NCBI GenBank assembly: GCA_030602885.1
Contig: JAUVYV010000001.1
Span: forward strand, 62,001 to 126,000
Reading direction: 5' to 3'
Length of the DNA: 64,000 bases
Source: Phycisphaerales bacterium
GTDB taxonomy: Bacteria; Planctomycetota; Phycisphaerae; Sedimentisphaerales; Anaerobacaceae
In this document: piece by piece, positions 1,107 through 39,992 of the stretch
How the letters are laid out: the number at the start of each line of letters is the position of its first letter
How positions within the stretch are numbered: position 1 is the stretch's first letter
Position numbers and translations under genes: made by a program
The notes under the pieces: model-generated
What the model was told of the DNA's origin: nothing
What the model saw: the letters and a program-made list of their open reading frames with translations, nothing else
Databases searched by the model: none

Positions 1107-3191
1107 ATGAGTCATTCACGATTTAGTTTCTTGGTGGTGTTGGGACTGACAAGCGTGGTGTGTTTTGCGGCAGCAAAGGAAGGTTCGCCGCTGGATGAGC
1201 TGCCGTCGTATATCAGGCGGGTGATAGAGTTTGGTCAGCGGGCGGACTTTTCGCACGACGGCAAGCGGGTACTGTTTCTTGAAAAGACTTTCGGTGATGT
1301 TTATGAAGTGGAATTAGAGACGGGGAAACTGCGGGCGATGACTCACCACTACTATCATGAGGGATATACGCGGGCATTGTATCTTGCGAACGGCGACATT
1401 CTCCTGTCGGGGGCGAAGAAGTTCGATGCGGCCAATCCGAGGGCGAGCAGAAGCGGCGCCAATGCGGAGCTTTGGGTGTTGAAGAAGGATTTGTCAGGGC
1501 CTCCTGTGCAGTTGGGTGAGCACTGCTCGGAAGGGCCGGCGGTATCGCGGAGGAGGATGAGATTGGCGTGGACGATGCAGGATGAGGGGCTGATATTTAT
1601 CGGGGATATTGTCTATGTGGCCGGCGAGCCGAAGTTAGTGAATAAAAGTAAAATACTGGATGCGAAAGATATGCCCTTTGAGTGCAATTTAGAGACGCAG
1701 AACTTTCGGCCACCGGATGAAAAGGAGCTTGTTTTCAGCGCTTATATGAAGAGGTATCGGTTCTGCGAGGTGATGGGGCTGAATTTGGAGACGGGCAAGA
1801 TTGTCAACTACTCTAATGCGCCGCGAGAGTATGACGAGCCGGAGGGGATTTTTCCCGATGGCAAGCACACGTTGGTCGAGTGCGACAGGGGCAACCACAG
1901 GGGAACACAGCATATCGATATTTACAAGCTGGCCCTGGACGGTTCGGGTCGGATGGAGCGACTGACGAAGTTCGCAAACTACAAGGGTTACAAGGCGAGT
2001 AATCCGGTGGTGAGTGACGATGGGCGTTATATGGCGTTTCAGTATGCTAAGTATGGGGACATGGCGGGAGTCGGGCGGGGGATACTGTTATTTGACTTCG
2101 AGGAGTATGAGAAGGCGAAAGAGGCGGAGGCGTCGGATTTGGGAAGTAATGCGCGCAGACCTCAGACGGATGAGGAGCTTCGGTACTGGCTCTCGAATAT
2201 GGTCTGGTATCACGGGTTCAGCAACGACGAGATCAGAGTAGCTACGGGATTGACCCAAGAAGAGATTACGACTGCACTGGAGCGGTTTGATATTCGGCGT
2301 GATAATAAGCCGAGGCGTAAGACAGGAGCGCCCCTGCTTGTGCTCCCCTACCCCGGCGGACGGCATCCCCGGCTTGGGTTTTTAGATGGGGCGGTTAATC
2401 CGCAGCGGGAGACGAAGGTGAGTGTGTTCTGTCCATGGGATGGAGAAAGTTATGTGGTGGTGGATGTGCCGGAGGCGGTCTTTTCAAACCTGGGGCTGGT
2501 ATATCTGGCGCATACGCATGAGCCGTTCCCGACCGTTTGGCAAAAGCAGGGGATAGACTTGGAGAAGTTAGAGTGGAACCGGCGTGATGACGGGACATTG
2601 GATATGGAGCGGGAGCTGCCGAATGGGATAGCGTTCGGGGCGAGGGTGATACCGGGTACGGATGCGGTGCGGATGGAGCTTTGGCTGAAGAACGGGACGG
2701 GTGAGAAGCTGACGGATTTGAAGGTGCAGAACTGCGTGATGACCGGGTATGCCAAGGGTTTTGAGGAGCAGACAAACGAGAACAAGGTTTTTGCGGATCC
2801 TTATGTTGCGTGCCGGTCGAAGGACGGGGATAAGTGGATAATCACGGCGTGGGAGAACTGCGTAAATCCGTGGGCCAATCCGGACGTGCCGTGCTTTCAC
2901 TCGGACCCGCAGTTTGCGGATTGCAAACCGGGCGAGACGGTTCGGCTTGTCGGCTGGGTCTGGTTCTACGAGGGAACAGATATAGAGAGGGAATTGGCGC
3001 GGAAAAGAAAAGACGGACTGGCGGCAATAATCAAAGGCACCGGCCCGGCAACTGCGAGGTGTGGGTATGATGTGCATTTCTTTGTTGGCTCGACAATCGA
3101 AGTGGGCCGATGTTATTTGAATTTTCCGGCGAGTGTGGAGCCGAATTCGGCGGCCAGCTTGGAGGCGGTGTACTGCTCAACGTTGTCATAA
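1107..3191 (+). CDS. Secreted beta-propeller-like protein of unknown function
   Basis: A 694-residue exported protein. A signal peptide (about residues 1-23, ending in CFAAA) is followed by a region resembling TolB/WD40-like beta-propeller repeats (for example RADFSHDGKRVLFLE and NPVVSDDGRYMAFQYAK), seen roughly at residues 40-330. A linker with a helical segment around 350-400 follows, then a distinct beta-rich C-terminal domain (about 410-640) starting near the PYPGGRHPRLGF motif and rich in Trp and Cys. AAGGAG lies 6 bases before the ATG. The last 26 codons overlap the antisense lipoprotein gene ending at 3113, which is unusual. Function unknown; sensing or binding of an extracellular ligand is a guess. 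Confidence 0.7.
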   Translation: MSHSRFSFLVVLGLTSVVCFAAAKEGSPLDELPSYIRRVIEFGQRADFSHDGKRVLFLEKTFGDVYEVELETGKLRAMTHHYYHEGYTRALYLANGDILLSGAKKFDAANPRASRSGANAELWVLKKDLSGPPVQLGEHCSEGPAVSRRRMRLAWTMQDEGLIFIGDIVYVAGEPKLVNKSKILDAKDMPFECNLETQNFRPPDEKELVFSAYMKRYRFCEVMGLNLETGKIVNYSNAPREYDEPEGIFPDGKHTLVECDRGNHRGTQHIDIYKLALDGSGRMERLTKFANYKGYKASNPVVSDDGRYMAFQYAKYGDMAGVGRGILLFDFEEYEKAKEAEASDLGSNARRPQTDEELRYWLSNMVWYHGFSNDEIRVATGLTQEEITTALERFDIRRDNKPRRKTGAPLLVLPYPGGRHPRLGFLDGAVNPQRETKVSVFCPWDGESYVVVDVPEAVFSNLGLVYLAHTHEPFPTVWQKQGIDLEKLEWNRRDDGTLDMERELPNGIAFGARVIPGTDAVRMELWLKNGTGEKLTDLKVQNCVMTGYAKGFEEQTNENKVFADPYVACRSKDGDKWIITAWENCVNPWANPDVPCFHSDPQFADCKPGETVRLVGWVWFYEGTDIERELARKRKDGLAAIIKGTGPATARCGYDVHFFVGSTIEVGRCYLNFPASVEPNSAASLEAVYCSTLS

Positions 3192-30049: not shown

Positions 30050-30127
30050 GTTTTGCAGACAAAAATTAACGTAACCTTTTATTCGCTAATATGTTCTGCG
30101 TTACAAAAAATACGATAAAATCAGCCG

Positions 30128-30306
30128 TCCGCCGCAGGCGGATTCAACAATTTTACATTTTGCATTTTGATTTTTACACTCTCAAATTGACCATCGGTCA
30201 GTTTGAGTATAATATCAACAAATCCCCTCCCACGCAACAAGCGCACCTCCTCACCCTAATCGCCTGTCCCGCAGGCGAAATATATAGCCTCGGCCTTTGG
30301 CCGAGG
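30128..30306. repeat. Series of short GC hairpins upstream of darTG
   Basis: TCCGCC/GGCGGA (30128-30133/30137-30142), CGCCTG/CAGGCG (30261-30266/30272-30277) and CCTCGGCC/GGCCGAGG (30288-30295/30299-30306) are perfect hairpins with short loops. The stretch 29969-30487 holds no convincing gene, only these hairpins, the 60-base repeat and a run of GAGATACGAAATACGAGATA-like units near 30390-30415. Confidence 0.55.
30149..30208. repeat. 60-base repeat with 12-base palindrome (copy 2)
   Basis: This is a near-identical copy of 28758-28817. Its palindrome is at 30181-30207; the left arm reads CTCAAATTGACC (one change), the right arm GGTCAGTTTGAG. Confidence 0.75.
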
Positions 30307-30487
30307 GCACATCCGAAAACGCTGACGCCTTCACAACGACTTTGTCATTCCCAGCTTCGCCGAAGGCTACGCCGCGGCAAGCCGGACGAAATGCGAGATA
30401 CGAAATACGAGATACGAGGCAATTTTCCTTGCTTTCCCCCTCGGCCTGTGCTAACTTACCGCTGGAAAGACCCCCGACAGGAGCGCA

Positions 30488-31150
30488 ATTATCAAAGCTG
30501 CCAAAAGCCAATTCCAGGAGAAGCCATACATATATCATATAACTCCTGTGGAGAATCTGCAGAGTATAATTGAAAATGGCGGATTGTACTCGGATGCGAA
30601 GAGAATTTCCCTTGGACTGGACAACTGCAATATCGGCATGAACGCTATTAAACAGCGCAGATTGAGCCTCGCGGTACATTGTCATCCCGGAACCAATGTT
30701 GGGCGGTATGTTCCTTTTTACTTTTGCCCTCGGTCTGTCATGCTTTACTTGCTACACAGGGGCAATCATCCTGATCTTACGTACAGCGGCGGCCAAAGCC
30801 CAATTATTCACCTGGTCTCTCCACTGAAGGATGTGGTGAAATATTGTGACCAGAATGACATCAAATGGGCGTTCACAGCCACCAATGCAGGAGCAACATA
30901 CACCCAGTTCTACGGTGACTTGTCGGATCTTGGAGAGATCAGCTGGAAGGCTGTCAGCGCCACTGACTTTCGTGATCCCGAAATCAAGGAAGGTAAGCAG
31001 GCGGAGTTTCTCGTGTTTGATTTCTTCCCTTGGGCACTCGTTTCTGGAATTGGCGTGCAAAACCAAGCAATCTGTGATAGAGTAAGGATTGCTCTGGAAC
31101 GAACAGACCAGAAGCCGGCGGTGAACGTCAAGAGCGACTGGTATTATTAG
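30488..31150 (+). CDS. darT: DarT-type DNA ADP-ribosyltransferase toxin, non-canonical or damaged start
   Basis: DarT transfers ADP-ribose from NAD+ to a thymidine base in single-stranded DNA. The family start YIYHITPVENLQSIIENGGL is encoded from 30527, followed by RYVPFYFCPRSVMLY (NAD-binding loop, catalytic Arg region) and KQAEFLVFDFFPW with the expected catalytic Glu. The first ATG/GTG/TTG in frame is GTG 30548, which would cut away the YHIT strand. The frame is open back to a TAA at 30452 with no standard start, so I place the start at ATT 30488, behind AGGAG. Either an AUU start or 5' damage is possible. darG follows 16 bases later. Confidence 0.75.
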   Translation: MIKAAKSQFQEKPYIYHITPVENLQSIIENGGLYSDAKRISLGLDNCNIGMNAIKQRRLSLAVHCHPGTNVGRYVPFYFCPRSVMLYLLHRGNHPDLTYSGGQSPIIHLVSPLKDVVKYCDQNDIKWAFTATNAGATYTQFYGDLSDLGEISWKAVSATDFRDPEIKEGKQAEFLVFDFFPWALVSGIGVQNQAICDRVRIALERTDQKPAVNVKSDWYY

Positions 31151-31166
31151 GAACGCTGAAGTAGCC

Positions 31167-32213
31167 ATGATTCACATTAAACACGGAAACATACTCAAGG
31201 CAGATACTGAGGCTCTGGTCAATACAGTCAACTGTGTGGGGATTATGGGCCGGGGGATTGCCCTGCAGTTCAAGAAAGCCTATCCTGAGAATTTTGAGGC
31301 CTACTCAAAAACCTGCAAAGAAAAGAAGCTGCATCCGGGAATGGTCTATAGTTACAGGCTCCCCACCCTTGGTGGCCCGAAGTACATCATCAATTTCCCA
31401 ACGAAGCGGCATTGGAAGGGCAAGGCTAAGGTTGTGGACATACAGGAGGGGCTGGTAGCCCTAGTCCAAAAGGTCAAAAAGCTTGGCATCAGGAGTATAT
31501 CTATCCCACCGCTTGGGTGTGGGTTGGGAGGGCTCAACTGGGAGACGGTGCGTCCAATTATGGAAGGTGCTCTCAGCAGTCTGGCAGATGTGGAGGTTTA
31601 CCTATATGAACCGCTGGGCGCTCCAGAAGCTCAGGAAATGGTGAATCGGACCGAGAGACCCAGAATGACCGTTGCCCGCGCTTCACTGGTTGGCCTGATC
31701 AAGAGATACTTGGAGGCTATGTTGGATGATTCTATAACACTTCTGGAAATCCACAAGTTGATGTATTTCATGCAGGAAGCAGGCGAGAAGCTCCGTCTCA
31801 ATTTCAAAGTCGCACCCTATGGCCCCTACGCTGAGAACCTCCGACACCTACTGATCTTGATTGAAGGACATTTGATTCAGGGTTTCGGTGAAGGAAAGGA
31901 TGACCCTGAGAAGTCAATATCTGTATTGCCAGAAGCATACTCACTGGCAGAGTCACATCTGCAGGAGCATCCTGCAACGCAGGAACGGTTGAATAAGGTG
32001 AGACAGTTGATTGAAGGCTTTGAAACTCCTTATGGAATGGAACTGCTATCAACAGTTCATTGGGTCGCAACCCACAAGAAGCCAAAGGAACTGAAACGTC
32101 TAACCTCCCTCGTGCATAGGTGGTCTAATAGGAAAAGGACCGTTATGAAAGACGAACATATTGAGATCGCATTAGAGAGACTGAAAGAGCTGGGATGGAT
32201 CAACGCGAACTGA
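31167..32213 (+). CDS. darG: DarG-type antitoxin (macrodomain DNA ADP-ribosyl glycohydrolase)
   Basis: A 348-residue protein. The N-terminal macrodomain (about residues 1-150) has GNILKADTEALVNTVNCVGIMG, in parts, and IPPLGCGLGGLNW, the ADP-ribose-binding loops; it removes ADP-ribose from DNA. The C-terminal domain (about 170-348), with ITLLEIHKLMYFMQEAGEKL, matches the DarT-binding/neutralising region of DarG. It is coupled to darT, forming a DarTG toxin-antitoxin/phage-defence pair. Its length and motifs appear intact, which argues that the toxin is still produced. Confidence 0.9.
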   Translation: MIHIKHGNILKADTEALVNTVNCVGIMGRGIALQFKKAYPENFEAYSKTCKEKKLHPGMVYSYRLPTLGGPKYIINFPTKRHWKGKAKVVDIQEGLVALVQKVKKLGIRSISIPPLGCGLGGLNWETVRPIMEGALSSLADVEVYLYEPLGAPEAQEMVNRTERPRMTVARASLVGLIKRYLEAMLDDSITLLEIHKLMYFMQEAGEKLRLNFKVAPYGPYAENLRHLLILIEGHLIQGFGEGKDDPEKSISVLPEAYSLAESHLQEHPATQERLNKVRQLIEGFETPYGMELLSTVHWVATHKKPKELKRLTSLVHRWSNRKRTVMKDEHIEIALERLKELGWINAN

Positions 32214-32561: not shown

Positions 32562-32665
32562 CAGTCGGCTTTTTATAAAGAGCGAAGCTCTTGTGGACGA
32601 AGACGTAACGTTCTGAAGAAGCTTGCTTCGTGAAGAACGTTTGTCGAGAACACTAAGCCGATCTG
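32562..32665 (+). other. Structured repeat element A
   Basis: Outer stem TCGGCTT/AAGCCGA (32565-32571/32655-32661) with CAG/CTG beyond it. A 6-base A/T linker leads to hairpin 1, AAGAGC-GAA-GCTCTT (32578-32592). The 13-base strand GTGGACGAAGACG follows directly (32593-32605). Hairpin 2 is AACGTTCT/AGAACGTT (32607-32614/32634-32641), with an inner GAAG-CTTG-CTTC hairpin (32618-32629). The same plan recurs in elements B and C. Confidence 0.6.
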
Positions 32666-32748
32666 CCCGCTGTAATCTTCGTGGCCGGAGTTTACCCGCT
32701 CAAGCCCCTCTGGCGCACCCCTCCCAGCGATCTCATGGTCCAGACTTC

Positions 32749-32871
32749 GTTCAGCCGGTCAAAAATGGAAGCGCACGCTTCCGTGAGCGAAGGCGTGCCG
32801 TTTCGAAGAAGCTTGCTTCGAGAGAAACGCCCGCCAAGAGCTTGTGCCATAGGTGCACAAACCGGCTGAAC
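32749..32871 (+). other. Structured repeat element B
   Basis: Outer stem GTTCAGCCGGT/ACCGGCTGAAC (32749-32759/32861-32871), 11 perfect pairs. A 7-base A-rich linker leads to hairpin 1, GGAAGC-GCAC-GCTTCC (32767-32782). Conserved strand GTGAGCGAAGGCG (32783-32795). Hairpin 2 is CGTTTC/GAAACG (32799-32804/32824-32829), with the same inner GAAG-CTTG-CTTC. An additional hairpin TTGTGC/GCACAA (32842-32847/32855-32860) abuts the outer stem. Confidence 0.6.
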
Positions 32872-33019
32872 ACCTGTGTTCCTCTTCACCTAATAAAAAA
32901 TCTGAGTTAATCAGTGTGAATCTGTGTCCAAGAAAAAAACTCTCTGTGGTCTCTGTGACCTCTGTGGCTACAAAATTTCTTAGTGTCTTTGAGTCTTGGT
33001 GGTGAACCAAAGATTTCAC

Positions 33020-33048
33020 TTGACATCTAACTTCCCATGTTGTATAAT
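33020..33048 (+). promoter_or_regulatory. Perfect-consensus sigma-70 promoter
   Basis: TTGACA (33020-33025) and TATAAT (33043-33048) with a 17-base spacer. No protein gene follows within 700 bases; the first structure downstream is element C, whose outer stem begins about 50 bases past the likely transcription start. Confidence 0.7.
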
Positions 33049-33104
33049 ACCCAGCTAACATATGAAAGCTTGATAAAAAACTGAAACTCGGAACCTAAAA
33101 ATGT

Positions 33105-33217
33105 TTGTTCAGTCAGCTAATACAGTGAGCAACGCTCACGTGGACGAAGGCGAAGGGCCTGCGCACAAACCACGTTTGGAGCAAGGCCCGCGCCGAGTAC
33201 ACCTGCTGACTGAACAA
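33105..33217 (+). ncRNA. Structured element C, candidate small RNA
   Basis: Outer stem TTGTTCAGTCAGC/GCTGACTGAACAA (33105-33117/33205-33217), 13 perfect pairs. A 7-base linker leads to hairpin 1, GTGAGC-AAC-GCTCAC (33125-33139). Conserved strand GTGGACGAAGGCG (33140-33152). Hairpin 2 is GGGCCT/AGGCCC (33155-33160/33184-33189), enclosing CAAAC-CAC-GTTTG (33166-33178). A consensus promoter lies 57 bases upstream. Hairpin 2 has a different sequence from A and B but the same position. RNA status is inference from structure and promoter. Confidence 0.45.
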
Positions 33218-33248
33218 CTCAGCGCTCTCGGCGTCCTCGGCGGTAAAA

Positions 33249-33285
33249 AATCCGTGCAAATCCGTGTCTATCCGTGGTTAAACCC
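33249..33285. repeat. ATCCGTG-type tandem dispersed repeat
   Basis: Imperfect tandem units of AATCCGTGNNNATCCGTGG type, a kind of intergenic filler seen in many bacterial genomes. Similar low-complexity runs (CTCTGTGGTCTCTGTGACC) lie at 32941-32970. Apart from the items listed, 32214-33795 holds no gene I can support. Confidence 0.5.
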
Positions 33286-33382
33286 CTTCTCTCTAAGGAC
33301 TTACAACTCTACAGCTGTAAAGAACTCTCTACAAATCGCACTTTTTATGCAAAACAAACCCAATGTCAAAATTATTAGACAA

Positions 33383-33740
33383 CATTTAACTCTATGCGCA
33401 AAAAGGACTTACAGAAAATTTCTTGGAAAATGCGGCAAAAAAGCAAACCCAAACAAACCCAATTCAAACCCAAAACAAACCCAATCTCCGAAAACCCCAA
33501 AATGAACCTAACCCTATACAATAAAAGAGATTACGAGAAAAATAGCCCCTTCGGCCCGCAAAAAACAAACCCAATTCAAACCCAATTTTCAAGCTGCCGG
33601 AGCCTGTCGAGGGCAGCGCAGATCCCCGAGAAGCTCCTCCAATGGCCCAGCAGCAGGGGACCCAACGCCAGGGTCGCGCAGAACCCCGCACCCATCGTGG
33701 TGCTGGGCCCGTTTCCCCACTGACCCGTTTTTCGCCCGGG
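33383..33740 (+). repeat. Dispersed composite repeat (copies 2 and 3) upstream of lpxB
   Basis: Two A-rich units (33383-33430 and 33502-33545) resemble 24279-24330, and a GC-rich unit (33669-33731) resembles 24379-24441 at roughly 85% by eye, again ending in a T-run. Between them are runs of AAACCCAATT-like units. As with copy 1, the next gene on the + strand begins within about 100 bases. Confidence 0.7.
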
Positions 33741-33795: not shown

Positions 33796-34947
33796 ATGCC
33801 CGACCAGAGCAGAAAATACCGCATCTTTCTAAGCGCTGCCGAGCCCAGCGCCGACGCCCACTGCGCAGGCCTCATAACCGCCTTGCAGCAAACACCTTAC
33901 GACATCGAATGTGTCGGCGTCGGAGGCCAGAAAATGGCTCACGCGGGCTGCAATCTGCTCGAAAATACCATCTCACACGCCGCCATGGCCTACAACGCAT
34001 TCGCGCACCTCGCACACTTCTACAAGCTCATCAAACGCATAACCCGTTATCTGCAAACAAATAACGTCGACCTCGTCGTCGTCTGCGACTCACCCGCATT
34101 CAACTTACCTCTCGCAAAAGCCGCAAAAAAACTCGCCATCCCAACCCTCTTCTACGTCGCCCCACAACTCTGGGCCTGGGCACCCTGGCGAATCAGAAAA
34201 CTGCGAAAATACTGCGATAAGCTCTGCTGCATCTTACCCTTTGAGCAGCAATGGTTTACCTCTCGCGGCCTTGACACCACCTTCGTCGGAAACCCCCTTT
34301 TCGACGAGCTCAATATTGCCCCAGCCAAGGCCAGCCGACGCGATTATGCCGCTTTCAACACTGATAACGCCAAAATCGCCATTATGCCCGGCTCGCGAAC
34401 CGCCGAAATCCGCTCACTCTGGCGGCCGATGCAGCAAATCGCAATTGCCCTGCGAAAAAAACACCGCAACGCCTCGTTCACCACCGTCGCCCTTGACGAA
34501 AAAACACAACAAGCCCTTGATTCCGCGCGACTTATGGACTTCCGCTGCAAATATGAAATCGGCTCAGTTTACCAAGCCGCCATCAACAGCGATTTTGCGA
34601 TTGTGGCAAGCGGCAGCGCCACTCTCCAGGTAGCCGCCGCCGGCTGTCCTATGGTCATTATGTATCACTCAAACCGTCTCCTCTGGCATCTCATTGGCCG
34701 ATGGCTCGTCACCAGCAAGTATCTGTCCCTGGTCAATATATTAGCGCAACGTGCGCTGGTGCCGGAGCTTATGCCGCATTACGGCTCAGTCGAATCAGTC
34801 GCCGAGACGGTGGAAAAGCTGCTCGCAGACCCACAGCGGCTTGCCCGGACAAGCGCCGAGCTTATCGACCTTGTCAGGCCATTAGCTGAAAAAAAGGCCG
34901 CCCCGGCAGTTGCGCAGATCGCAATCGATATGCTAAACCAAAGCTAG
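33796..34947 (+). CDS. lpxB: Lipid-A-disaccharide synthase
   Basis: A 383-residue GT19 glycosyltransferase, normal length. It condenses UDP-2,3-diacylglucosamine and lipid X into the lipid A disaccharide. Visible family blocks: FLSAAEPSADAHCAGLI near the start, VVVCDSPAFNLPLAKAAKK, YVAPQLWAWAPWRIRKLRKYCD in parts, LPFEQQWFTSRGL, FVGNPLFDE, and MPGSRTAEI with the C-terminal nucleotide-sugar site. Its presence implies an outer membrane with lipid A. The coding strand is C-rich, as in pgsA. Confidence 0.93.
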   Translation: MPDQSRKYRIFLSAAEPSADAHCAGLITALQQTPYDIECVGVGGQKMAHAGCNLLENTISHAAMAYNAFAHLAHFYKLIKRITRYLQTNNVDLVVVCDSPAFNLPLAKAAKKLAIPTLFYVAPQLWAWAPWRIRKLRKYCDKLCCILPFEQQWFTSRGLDTTFVGNPLFDELNIAPAKASRRDYAAFNTDNAKIAIMPGSRTAEIRSLWRPMQQIAIALRKKHRNASFTTVALDEKTQQALDSARLMDFRCKYEIGSVYQAAINSDFAIVASGSATLQVAAAGCPMVIMYHSNRLLWHLIGRWLVTSKYLSLVNILAQRALVPELMPHYGSVESVAETVEKLLADPQRLARTSAELIDLVRPLAEKKAAPAVAQIAIDMLNQS

Positions 34948-38732: not shown

Positions 38733-39992
38733 ATGAAGCGGGTCAGTTACGCATTTATTCTGGTTTTCATGCTGGTGACGGGGCTGTCCGGCCAGGTGAA
38801 GGCCGCTGCGCAGACAGTTGAACAAACGATCGCGGAGGGCAACAACCGCTTTGCCTTTGGGCTTTATGAGAAGCTGCGAAACCAGAAAGGCAATTTGTTT
38901 TTTTCTCCGTACAGTATCTCAACGGCTTTGGCTATGGCCTACGCGGGAGCAGGAGGCGAGACCGCCGGCCAGATGGGCCAGGTCCTGGGCTTTGCGGGTG
39001 CGCCGAAGGCGACGGCCCTTGCGCTGGCGGATGCGGCACCGCACAAAAAGGAGATTCACGAAGCGTTTGGGCAGATTATCAAAGACTTGAATGCGAGAGG
39101 TGCCAAGGGTGCGTACGAGCTTGTGGTGGCGAATGCTTTGTGGGGACAGAAGGGACACGAGTTTTTGGAAGATTTTCTTGAGCTTGTGAAGACCAATTAT
39201 GACGGTAAGCTGCAGGAGCTTGATTTTGCAGCCGACAGCGAAGGTGCGCGCAAGACAATCAATGCATGGGTTGAGCAGAAGACCAGGGACAAGATAAAGG
39301 AGCTTATCAAGCAGGGCTCGTTAGGACCCATGACGCGACTGGTGCTGACGAATGCGATTTACTTCAAGGGTAACTGGGCCAGACAGTTCAAACCGGAGAT
39401 GACCATACAGGAGCCGTTTACCCTGCTGAGCGGGAAAAAGGTGGATGTCCCTATGATGCGCCAGGATGATAAGCGGAGCGGCTACGCTGAAAACGAGGTT
39501 TGTCAGATTCTCGAAATGCCTTATGTTGATGATGAACTGTCGATGGTGGTCTTACTGCCAAAAAGGGTTGACGGCGTGAAGGCACTGGCCGAAGAGCTTA
39601 CGAGTGAAAACGTTGCGAAGTGGCTTGGCAAGCTTCGCAAGCGCGAGGTGAAAGTTTTCTTTCCGAAGTTTAAGATGACCAGTGAATTTGGCCTGTCGGA
39701 TGTATTGAGCTCAATGGGGATGGCGGACGCATTTTCACCGAACAAAGCTGATTTTTCTGGTATGACAGGCAAGAGGGACCTTTTCATTTCGGCGGTTATT
39801 CATAAGGCATACGTGGACGTAAACGAGGAGGGCACCGAGGCGGCTGCGGCAACTGGAGTGGTGATGAAGCTGACGTCGGTAGGACCTGTGATGCCGGTTT
39901 TCCGTGCGGATCATCCGTTTATTTTTCTGATACGTGACAACTGTTTGGGCAGCATCTTGTTCATCGGCCGGGTAATGGACCCAAAGAGCTGA
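38733..39992 (+). CDS. Secreted serpin (serine protease inhibitor)
   Basis: A 419-residue protein with a signal peptide (about residues 1-25, ending GQVKAAA) and a full serpin domain: NLFFSPYSISTALAMAYAGAGG, VLTNAIYFKGNW, the breach/shutter residues, and the C-terminal FIFLIRDNCLGSILFIGRV. The reactive-loop hinge EEGTEAAAATGVV has the small residues of inhibitory serpins. Counting from the hinge puts Thr-Ser at P1-P1', with Lys two residues before, so target preference is unclear. It likely protects surface or secreted proteins from foreign proteases. Confidence 0.93.
   Translation: MKRVSYAFILVFMLVTGLSGQVKAAAQTVEQTIAEGNNRFAFGLYEKLRNQKGNLFFSPYSISTALAMAYAGAGGETAGQMGQVLGFAGAPKATALALADAAPHKKEIHEAFGQIIKDLNARGAKGAYELVVANALWGQKGHEFLEDFLELVKTNYDGKLQELDFAADSEGARKTINAWVEQKTRDKIKELIKQGSLGPMTRLVLTNAIYFKGNWARQFKPEMTIQEPFTLLSGKKVDVPMMRQDDKRSGYAENEVCQILEMPYVDDELSMVVLLPKRVDGVKALAEELTSENVAKWLGKLRKREVKVFFPKFKMTSEFGLSDVLSSMGMADAFSPNKADFSGMTGKRDLFISAVIHKAYVDVNEEGTEAAAATGVVMKLTSVGPVMPVFRADHPFIFLIRDNCLGSILFIGRVMDPKS

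Follow-up and report, generated by a model that had tools for sequence, protein, structure and literature searches.

The closest described relatives of the element reported here are the attC sites of integrons and CALIN arrays, the REP/BIME repeats (RAYT, Y1, IS200/IS605-like), the MITEs, and the candidate structured RNAs of Rfam, including tandem and mobile-element-associated motifs. Like attC and CALIN sites, the element is a folded repeat whose stem sequence varies; it forms arrays on a single strand and borders small cargo genes that are often defence-related. It differs from them in its three-way junction with a conserved internal-loop core, where attC has R and L boxes and extrahelical bases, and in its dispersal over the genome beside 10-bp arrays, with no integron integrase in the copy-rich genomes. 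REP/BIME repeats are likewise intergenic, dispersed, foldable and high in copy number, and some REPs share the GTGG tetranucleotide that the element carries beside a hairpin. A REP, however, is a single hairpin of 20–40 nt, whereas the element is a three-way junction of ~110 nt, and several copy-rich genomes have no Y1 transposase. The perfect terminal inverted repeats (the outer stem) of a non-coding, multi-copy and polymorphic sequence recall MITEs, but target-site duplications are absent, the interior structure covaries, and the orientation is fixed at repeat arrays. With the Rfam candidates the element has in common a covariation-supported, clade-limited intergenic structure, but it has no Rfam 15 match and no general promoter or gene association.

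We analysed a 64,000-nt stretch of a Phycisphaerales genome assembly (hereafter the window), in which three tandem copies of the element, A, B and C, lie on the + strand between a toxin-antitoxin pair and a core gene, and we followed the family through related genomes.

Results

Architecture of the three elements

The features of the locus are given below. R1 is a covariance model built from eight copies of the same genome, and R2 is a refined covariance model.

30548–32213, + strand, toxin-antitoxin pair, the cargo 5' of the cluster: DarT (30548–31150) and DarG macro-domain protein (31167–32213) (Pfam; PADLOC DarG E=2.7e-131)
32562–32664, + strand, element A (R1 83.8 bits, R2 88.0 bits)
32748–32872, + strand, element B (R1 79.6 bits, R2 72.8 bits)
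32900–32971, + strand, repeat tail of 10-bp/9-bp units 3' of B (AATCTGAGTTAATCAGTGTGAATCTGTGTCC ... CTCTGTGGTCTCTGTGACCTCTGTGGCTA)
33020–33048, + strand, sigma-70-type consensus promoter TTGACA-17-TATAAT upstream of C
33104–33218, + strand, element C (R1 124.8 bits, R2 101 bits)
33218–33277, + strand, repeat tail of period 10 3' of C (CTCAGCGCTCTCGGCGTCCTCGGCGG ... AATCCGTGCAAATCCGTGTCTATCCGTGG)
33796–34947, + strand, LpxB, a core gene 3' of the cluster (Pfam; no PADLOC match)

The initial annotation described in each copy an outer stem, a linker, a 6-pair hairpin, a conserved strand and a two-part hairpin, and every one of these parts was recovered in place. The outer stem of A is formed by 7 pairs (GTCGGCTT/AAGCCGAT), its short hairpin is AAGAGC-GAA-GCTCTT, and its second hairpin is capped by a G(CTTG)C loop. 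Element B is closed by 11 pairs (GTTCAGCCGGT/ACCGGCTGAAC) and has an additional hairpin, GAGCTTGTGCCATAGGTGCACAA, inserted close to the 3' arm. In element C, the outer stem reaches 13 bp (TTGTTCAGTCAGC/GCTGACTGAACAA, 33105–33117/33205–33217), the short hairpin is GTGAGC-AAC-GCTCAC, and the partner of the conserved strand is CGCCGAGTACAC. RNA folding gives z-scores of -3.7 for A, -5.4 for B and -6.9 for C. Element A is a mosaic that combines two subfamilies, since its left half and upstream flank are common to the copies at loci L075 and L076 and its right half resembles that at L086.

The conserved strand, GTGRRCGAAGRCG (GTG-RR-CGAAG-RCG), is located at 32593–32605 in A, 32783–32795 in B and 33140–33152 in C, and these are its only exact matches in the window. 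It had been taken to be single-stranded, and this point needs correction. About 55 nt downstream lies a second conserved strand, CGYCRAGWACAC (CGY-C-RAGWA-CAC), and the two pair around an internal loop through its CRAGWACAC stretch, GUG with CAC and C with G, and through RCG with CGY. The fold plan as modelled is a three-way junction composed of the outer stem, the short hairpin and the long two-part hairpin, with the conserved internal loop near the base of the last.

Conservation of the fold

Selection on structure had been proposed from A, B and C, and the wider family bears this out, with covariation across 94 copies far above that of shuffled alignments and of slid pairing partners. In this alignment (A3), which was fitted to the covariance model and so leans toward structure, 92.2% of the cells are paired, both sides have changed in 34 of the 35 pairs, and double-change cells number 745 against 200 after shuffling, a margin that is nonetheless very large. 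None of the 500 shuffles reached any of the five covariation measures, and sliding the partners by 1–3 columns lowered the paired cells from 92% to 34–44% (~43% for one column). The element is therefore structured and under selection. The outer stem, typically 8–14 bp, amounts to terminal inverted repeats whose ends differ between subfamilies (TTTTAGCC, AAGCAGTC, ATTCAGTC and CAGATTGG).

At paired positions, G-U outnumbers A-C by 151 to 60, although the covariance model itself prefers G-U, and the apex of the long hairpin is frequently G(CUYG)C (CTCG 23 times, CTTG 6 times). The G-U excess and this apex suggest that the + strand is the folded strand, and they are compatible both with RNA and with single-stranded DNA.

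Distribution of the family

The 13-mer of the conserved strand was counted 14 times in the genome, against 2 for the reversed control, and about ten of these occurrences were judged real copies by structure. R1 found 34 places in the same genome, 32 of full length and two that are fragments at contig ends, and it matched 34 of the 89 genomes of the same taxonomic family. R2 matched 42 of 161 genomes (MAGs) of the order Sedimentisphaerales, in 25 of 84 genera, with up to about two dozen matches in a relative; among related genomes, the copy number ranges from 0 to ~34. When the collection of named genomes was scanned with a sequence pattern, 25 stretches were returned, whose titles are Phycisphaerae, Sedimentisphaerales or Planctomycetota save for one Caulobacterales and one 'uncultured bacterium'. 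The Caulobacterales match had no support from the model, and the model backed none of the pattern matches from three viral scans. Similarity searches of plasmids and of phages found no similar DNA in either.

These searches answer the question of whether further copies exist with their stems kept, as they do, and they justify the planctomycete label of the initial annotation, since almost all the matches in the genome collection are Phycisphaerae or Planctomycetota MAGs. That the family was not recognised at first reading also agrees with Rfam 15, which gave the window no match at the gathering score, only chance-level matches at a permissive threshold, and only a tRNA on loci from five relatives. 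A literature search that covered the decamers, repeats in Sedimentisphaerales, integrons of Planctomycetes and structured three-way junctions yielded no description of the element. The family of ~110-nt elements is real, uncatalogued, clade-limited and multi-copy.

Placement beside decamer arrays

Copies are mostly intergenic, with a median of 365–425 nt to the nearest ORFs, and their orientation relative to the flanking genes is mixed, and a cis-regulatory role was rejected on this ground. No protein family recurs beside them, and the 'ORFs' that seemed to recur are read-through of repeats. A general promoter was also rejected, as it was found upstream of 5 of 118 copies in the forward direction versus 11 in the reverse; the perfect sigma-70 promoter that precedes C is common to only two other copies of its genome.

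What the copies do share is a set of degenerate 10-bp repeats (AATCCGTGTx..., for example AATCCGTGCAAATCCGTGTCTATCCGTGG and CTCTGTGTCCTCTGTGG) that follows directly on the 3' side and on the same strand. In the first 50 nt 3' of the copies, decamer cores occur at 50/kb, compared with 2–3/kb in the background and 0.9/kb on the opposite strand. A core lies within 40 nt on the 3' side in 94 of 112 copies (84%, versus 15% of control stretches) and within 22 nt on the 5' side in 34 of 112 (control 7%), and, by reading, several copies in genus g6 appear to split a decamer triple (AATCCGTGT, element, CAGTGTTAATCCGTGTCT). Within the window, only two arrays have at least three decamer units, one after B and the other after C. 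The arrays extend beyond the element: they were found in 53 of 246 Planctomycetota genomes, also in genomes without a known element, and often form the arms of a palindromic repeat that has no element. Neighbouring copies less than 1 kb apart lie on the same strand in 26 cases against 0, even where different subfamilies are 5–8 nt apart. Target-site duplications of k=2–9 showed no excess over the control.

Cargo and core genes on either side

The window places a toxin-antitoxin system 5' of the cluster and a core gene 3' of it, and this polarity recurs. PADLOC searches match the 59 nearest 5'-side ORFs to 232 families and the 49 nearest 3'-side ORFs to 5; counted by protein in a systematic sample, matches were obtained for 11 of 30 on the 5' side and for no more than 6 of 49 on the 3' side (Fisher P=0.012), in a contrast of modest numbers whose nearest ORFs were picked mechanically. 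Among members that were chosen, and so are not fully random, Pfam assigns Eco57I methylases, GmrSD, Mrr, HSDR_N, AAA_13, KAP NTPase, DUF4062, PIN-like DUF4411 and DUF488 to the 5' side, and MutS, PurL, NadC, GpsA, ribosomal-S1-like, UbiA and MiaB-like proteins to the 3' side. The element thus marks a boundary, with variable and often defence genes 5' and core genes 3'. Directly before DarT, a 160-aa ORF (30091–30573) has no Pfam match and possibly belongs to the same cargo.

Sister species of genus g6 differ at corresponding loci. One pair of conserved genes is separated in G040 by only 163 nt, which contain decamers, and in G005 by ~1.8 kb that holds an element and two ORFs, a filled site of element plus ~1.6 kb of cargo (L101/L107). 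At the adjoining locus, the two genomes have an element at the same place and in the same orientation, but of different subfamilies and with different cargo. At pgi, G040 and G005 have wholly different genes upstream of their elements, and the ~1.5 kb adjoining pgi in G042 contain no element. Downstream of rpsA, a stretch that measures 386 nt in G005 extends over ~2.5 kb in G040, with decamers, an element and a gene for a DUF4062-TPR protein, and neither G041 nor G042 has an element there. Upstream of purL, the G005 element is inside ~396 nt that are missing from G040, an insert without cargo whose boundaries are wider than the element, while G042 has decamers and no element. These differences indicate that elements and cargo come and go. 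The inserted blocks include other sequence, and none of the sister-species loci compared offers a base-exact empty site. In L107 (G005), around 3032–3160 on the reverse complement, the 3' end of a methyltransferase gene at the far cargo edge is partly duplicated ~94 bp apart, and this duplication might resemble an attachment site.

Candidate enzymes

The integron integrase model TIGR02249 scored above its cut-off in 9 of the 89 family genomes, of which only G012 carries elements, and found nothing above cut-off in the copy-rich genomes. Y1_Tnp (PF01797) is absent from the copy-rich genomes G005, G040, G041, G042, G069 and G072. In the loci examined, no transposase or integrase gene adjoins the copies, save for one weak match in L127. 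For a contig of the genome of the window that is bounded by inverted copies (G000:C22), a composite transposon was considered and rejected, as by reading the interior holds FtsW- and MurG-like ORFs. Tyrosine-recombinase-like matches number 24 in the genome of the window, compared with mostly 1–8 in its relatives.

Discussion

We favour a mobile or recombination-site function over a regulatory RNA and, with about even confidence, regard the elements as a new family of interspersed sequences, ~110 nt long and foldable, that are mobile or recombination-associated. The initial annotation offered three guesses, of which ends of a mobile element or recombination sites fit the context best; ordinary attC sites of integrons and IS200/IS605 ends do not pass the tests applied here, and a small RNA is a lesser possibility that lacks a general promoter. 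A possible sequence of events is that a trans-acting enzyme would recognise the folded + strand, as single-stranded DNA or RNA, and might place the element directionally at decamer arrays, where the element could serve as, or travel with, an acquisition site or the end of gene cargo. Several results weigh against the mobile or recombination-associated reading: neither a target-site duplication nor a base-exact empty site is present, no transposase or integrase gene adjoins the copies in the loci examined, and decamer arrays are present as well in genomes with no known copy. In addition, hypervariable intergenic regions could gather repeats and defence genes independently, though such gathering alone does not predict the 5'/3' polarity. 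Homologous recombination between dispersed copies is a possible and simpler driver.

The gathering of repeats leads to the view of a passive, REP- or MITE-like selfish repeat that accumulates in permissive hypervariable regions alongside defence genes. The copies are multiple, intergenic and mosaic and share their regions with several other repeats, as this view expects, but their orientation is fixed with respect to both cargo/core and decamers, target duplications are absent, and several copy-rich genomes lack Y1 transposases, the enzymes by which REP-like elements are driven. We consider it improbable. A functional non-coding RNA family, transcribed from many loci, acting in trans (for example by binding protein) and multiplied by chance, would explain the very strong structure conservation, the excess of G-U over A-C, the common rRNA-type tetraloop at the apex, and the perfect promoter before C and two other copies. 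Promoters are not general, however, G-T wobble is tolerated in DNA too and is preferred as G-U by the covariance model, the copy number varies from none to dozens in related genomes, and copies at the same locus are polymorphic between sister species. We rate such an RNA as rather unlikely, if a serious candidate.

The remaining alternatives resemble integrons. Ordinary attC sites or IS200/IS605-type ends would account for a folded repeat in directional arrays with cassette-like cargo, but the attC core boxes RYYYAAC/GTTRRRY are not conserved at the stem base, TIGR02249 scores above its cut-off in none of the copy-rich genomes, and Y1_Tnp is missing from six of them, so that this identification is very improbable. 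An integron-like cassette system with a putative recombinase of its own, with one folded site per cargo block inserted directionally beside a decamer anchor, fares better. It is in keeping with the same-strand arrays, the single element that borders variable cargo at one end, the abundance of defence and orphan genes in that cargo, the empty site with decamers and its filled counterpart, and stems that vary in sequence while keeping their structure, as in attC. Nevertheless, the outer stem has no conserved attC-type R boxes, canonical integrases coincide with the element in a single genome of the family, no recombinase gene adjoins the copies in the loci examined, and the purL insert brings no cargo and exceeds the element at its boundaries. 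Such a system seems unlikely. The boldest reading, likewise unlikely, is that Phycisphaerae possess a gene-capture system that does not depend on integron integrases. Its site, a three-way junction of ~110 nt read as a folded single strand, would direct the orientation-specific integration of mostly defence cassettes beside 10-bp repeat anchors.

As a structure-conserved repeat at the junction of core genes with defence or orphan cargo, the element would provide a sequence handle for finding planctomycete defence genes. If it is a recombination site, the integron would no longer be the only gene-capture system that works through a folded strand. The element can also be used to test what determines the positions of the strand-specific 10-bp arrays across Planctomycetota.

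Other repeats and genes

A palindromic intergenic repeat of several Planctomycetota (L203–L222), widespread in the phylum with 53 of 246 genomes, consists of two arms of three 10-bp units each around a loop (CCACAGATTnnCACAGATTnACACnGAT and ATCnGTGnnAATCTGTGnAATCTGTGG). In the genome of the window, a module consisting of a perfect sigma-70 promoter (TTGACATCTAACTTCCCATNNNGTATAAT), a ribosome-binding site, an ATG and a short ORF (MTTHLQDVIFCFSALELFQ...) that runs into the decamer array is found at 33020–33048 of the window and at L178, L186, L198, L200 and L202. A hairpin-like insert of ~46 nt (GAAGTTTACCCTCGAGTGCCTGCTACCTTG...CAACAGAGGG), possibly a nested small repeat, breaks the decamer tails of several copies at the same point (L004, L006 and other loci of this genome, for example 3' of the copies in L084, L076 and L077). 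At 33340–33600, CAAACCCAA repeat units, which are also found near elements in relatives, give rise to read-through 'proteins' (MQNKPN..., CKTNPI...). Further along the window, at 38733–39992, lies a full-length serpin gene (Pfam E=7e-128), here in a planctomycete.
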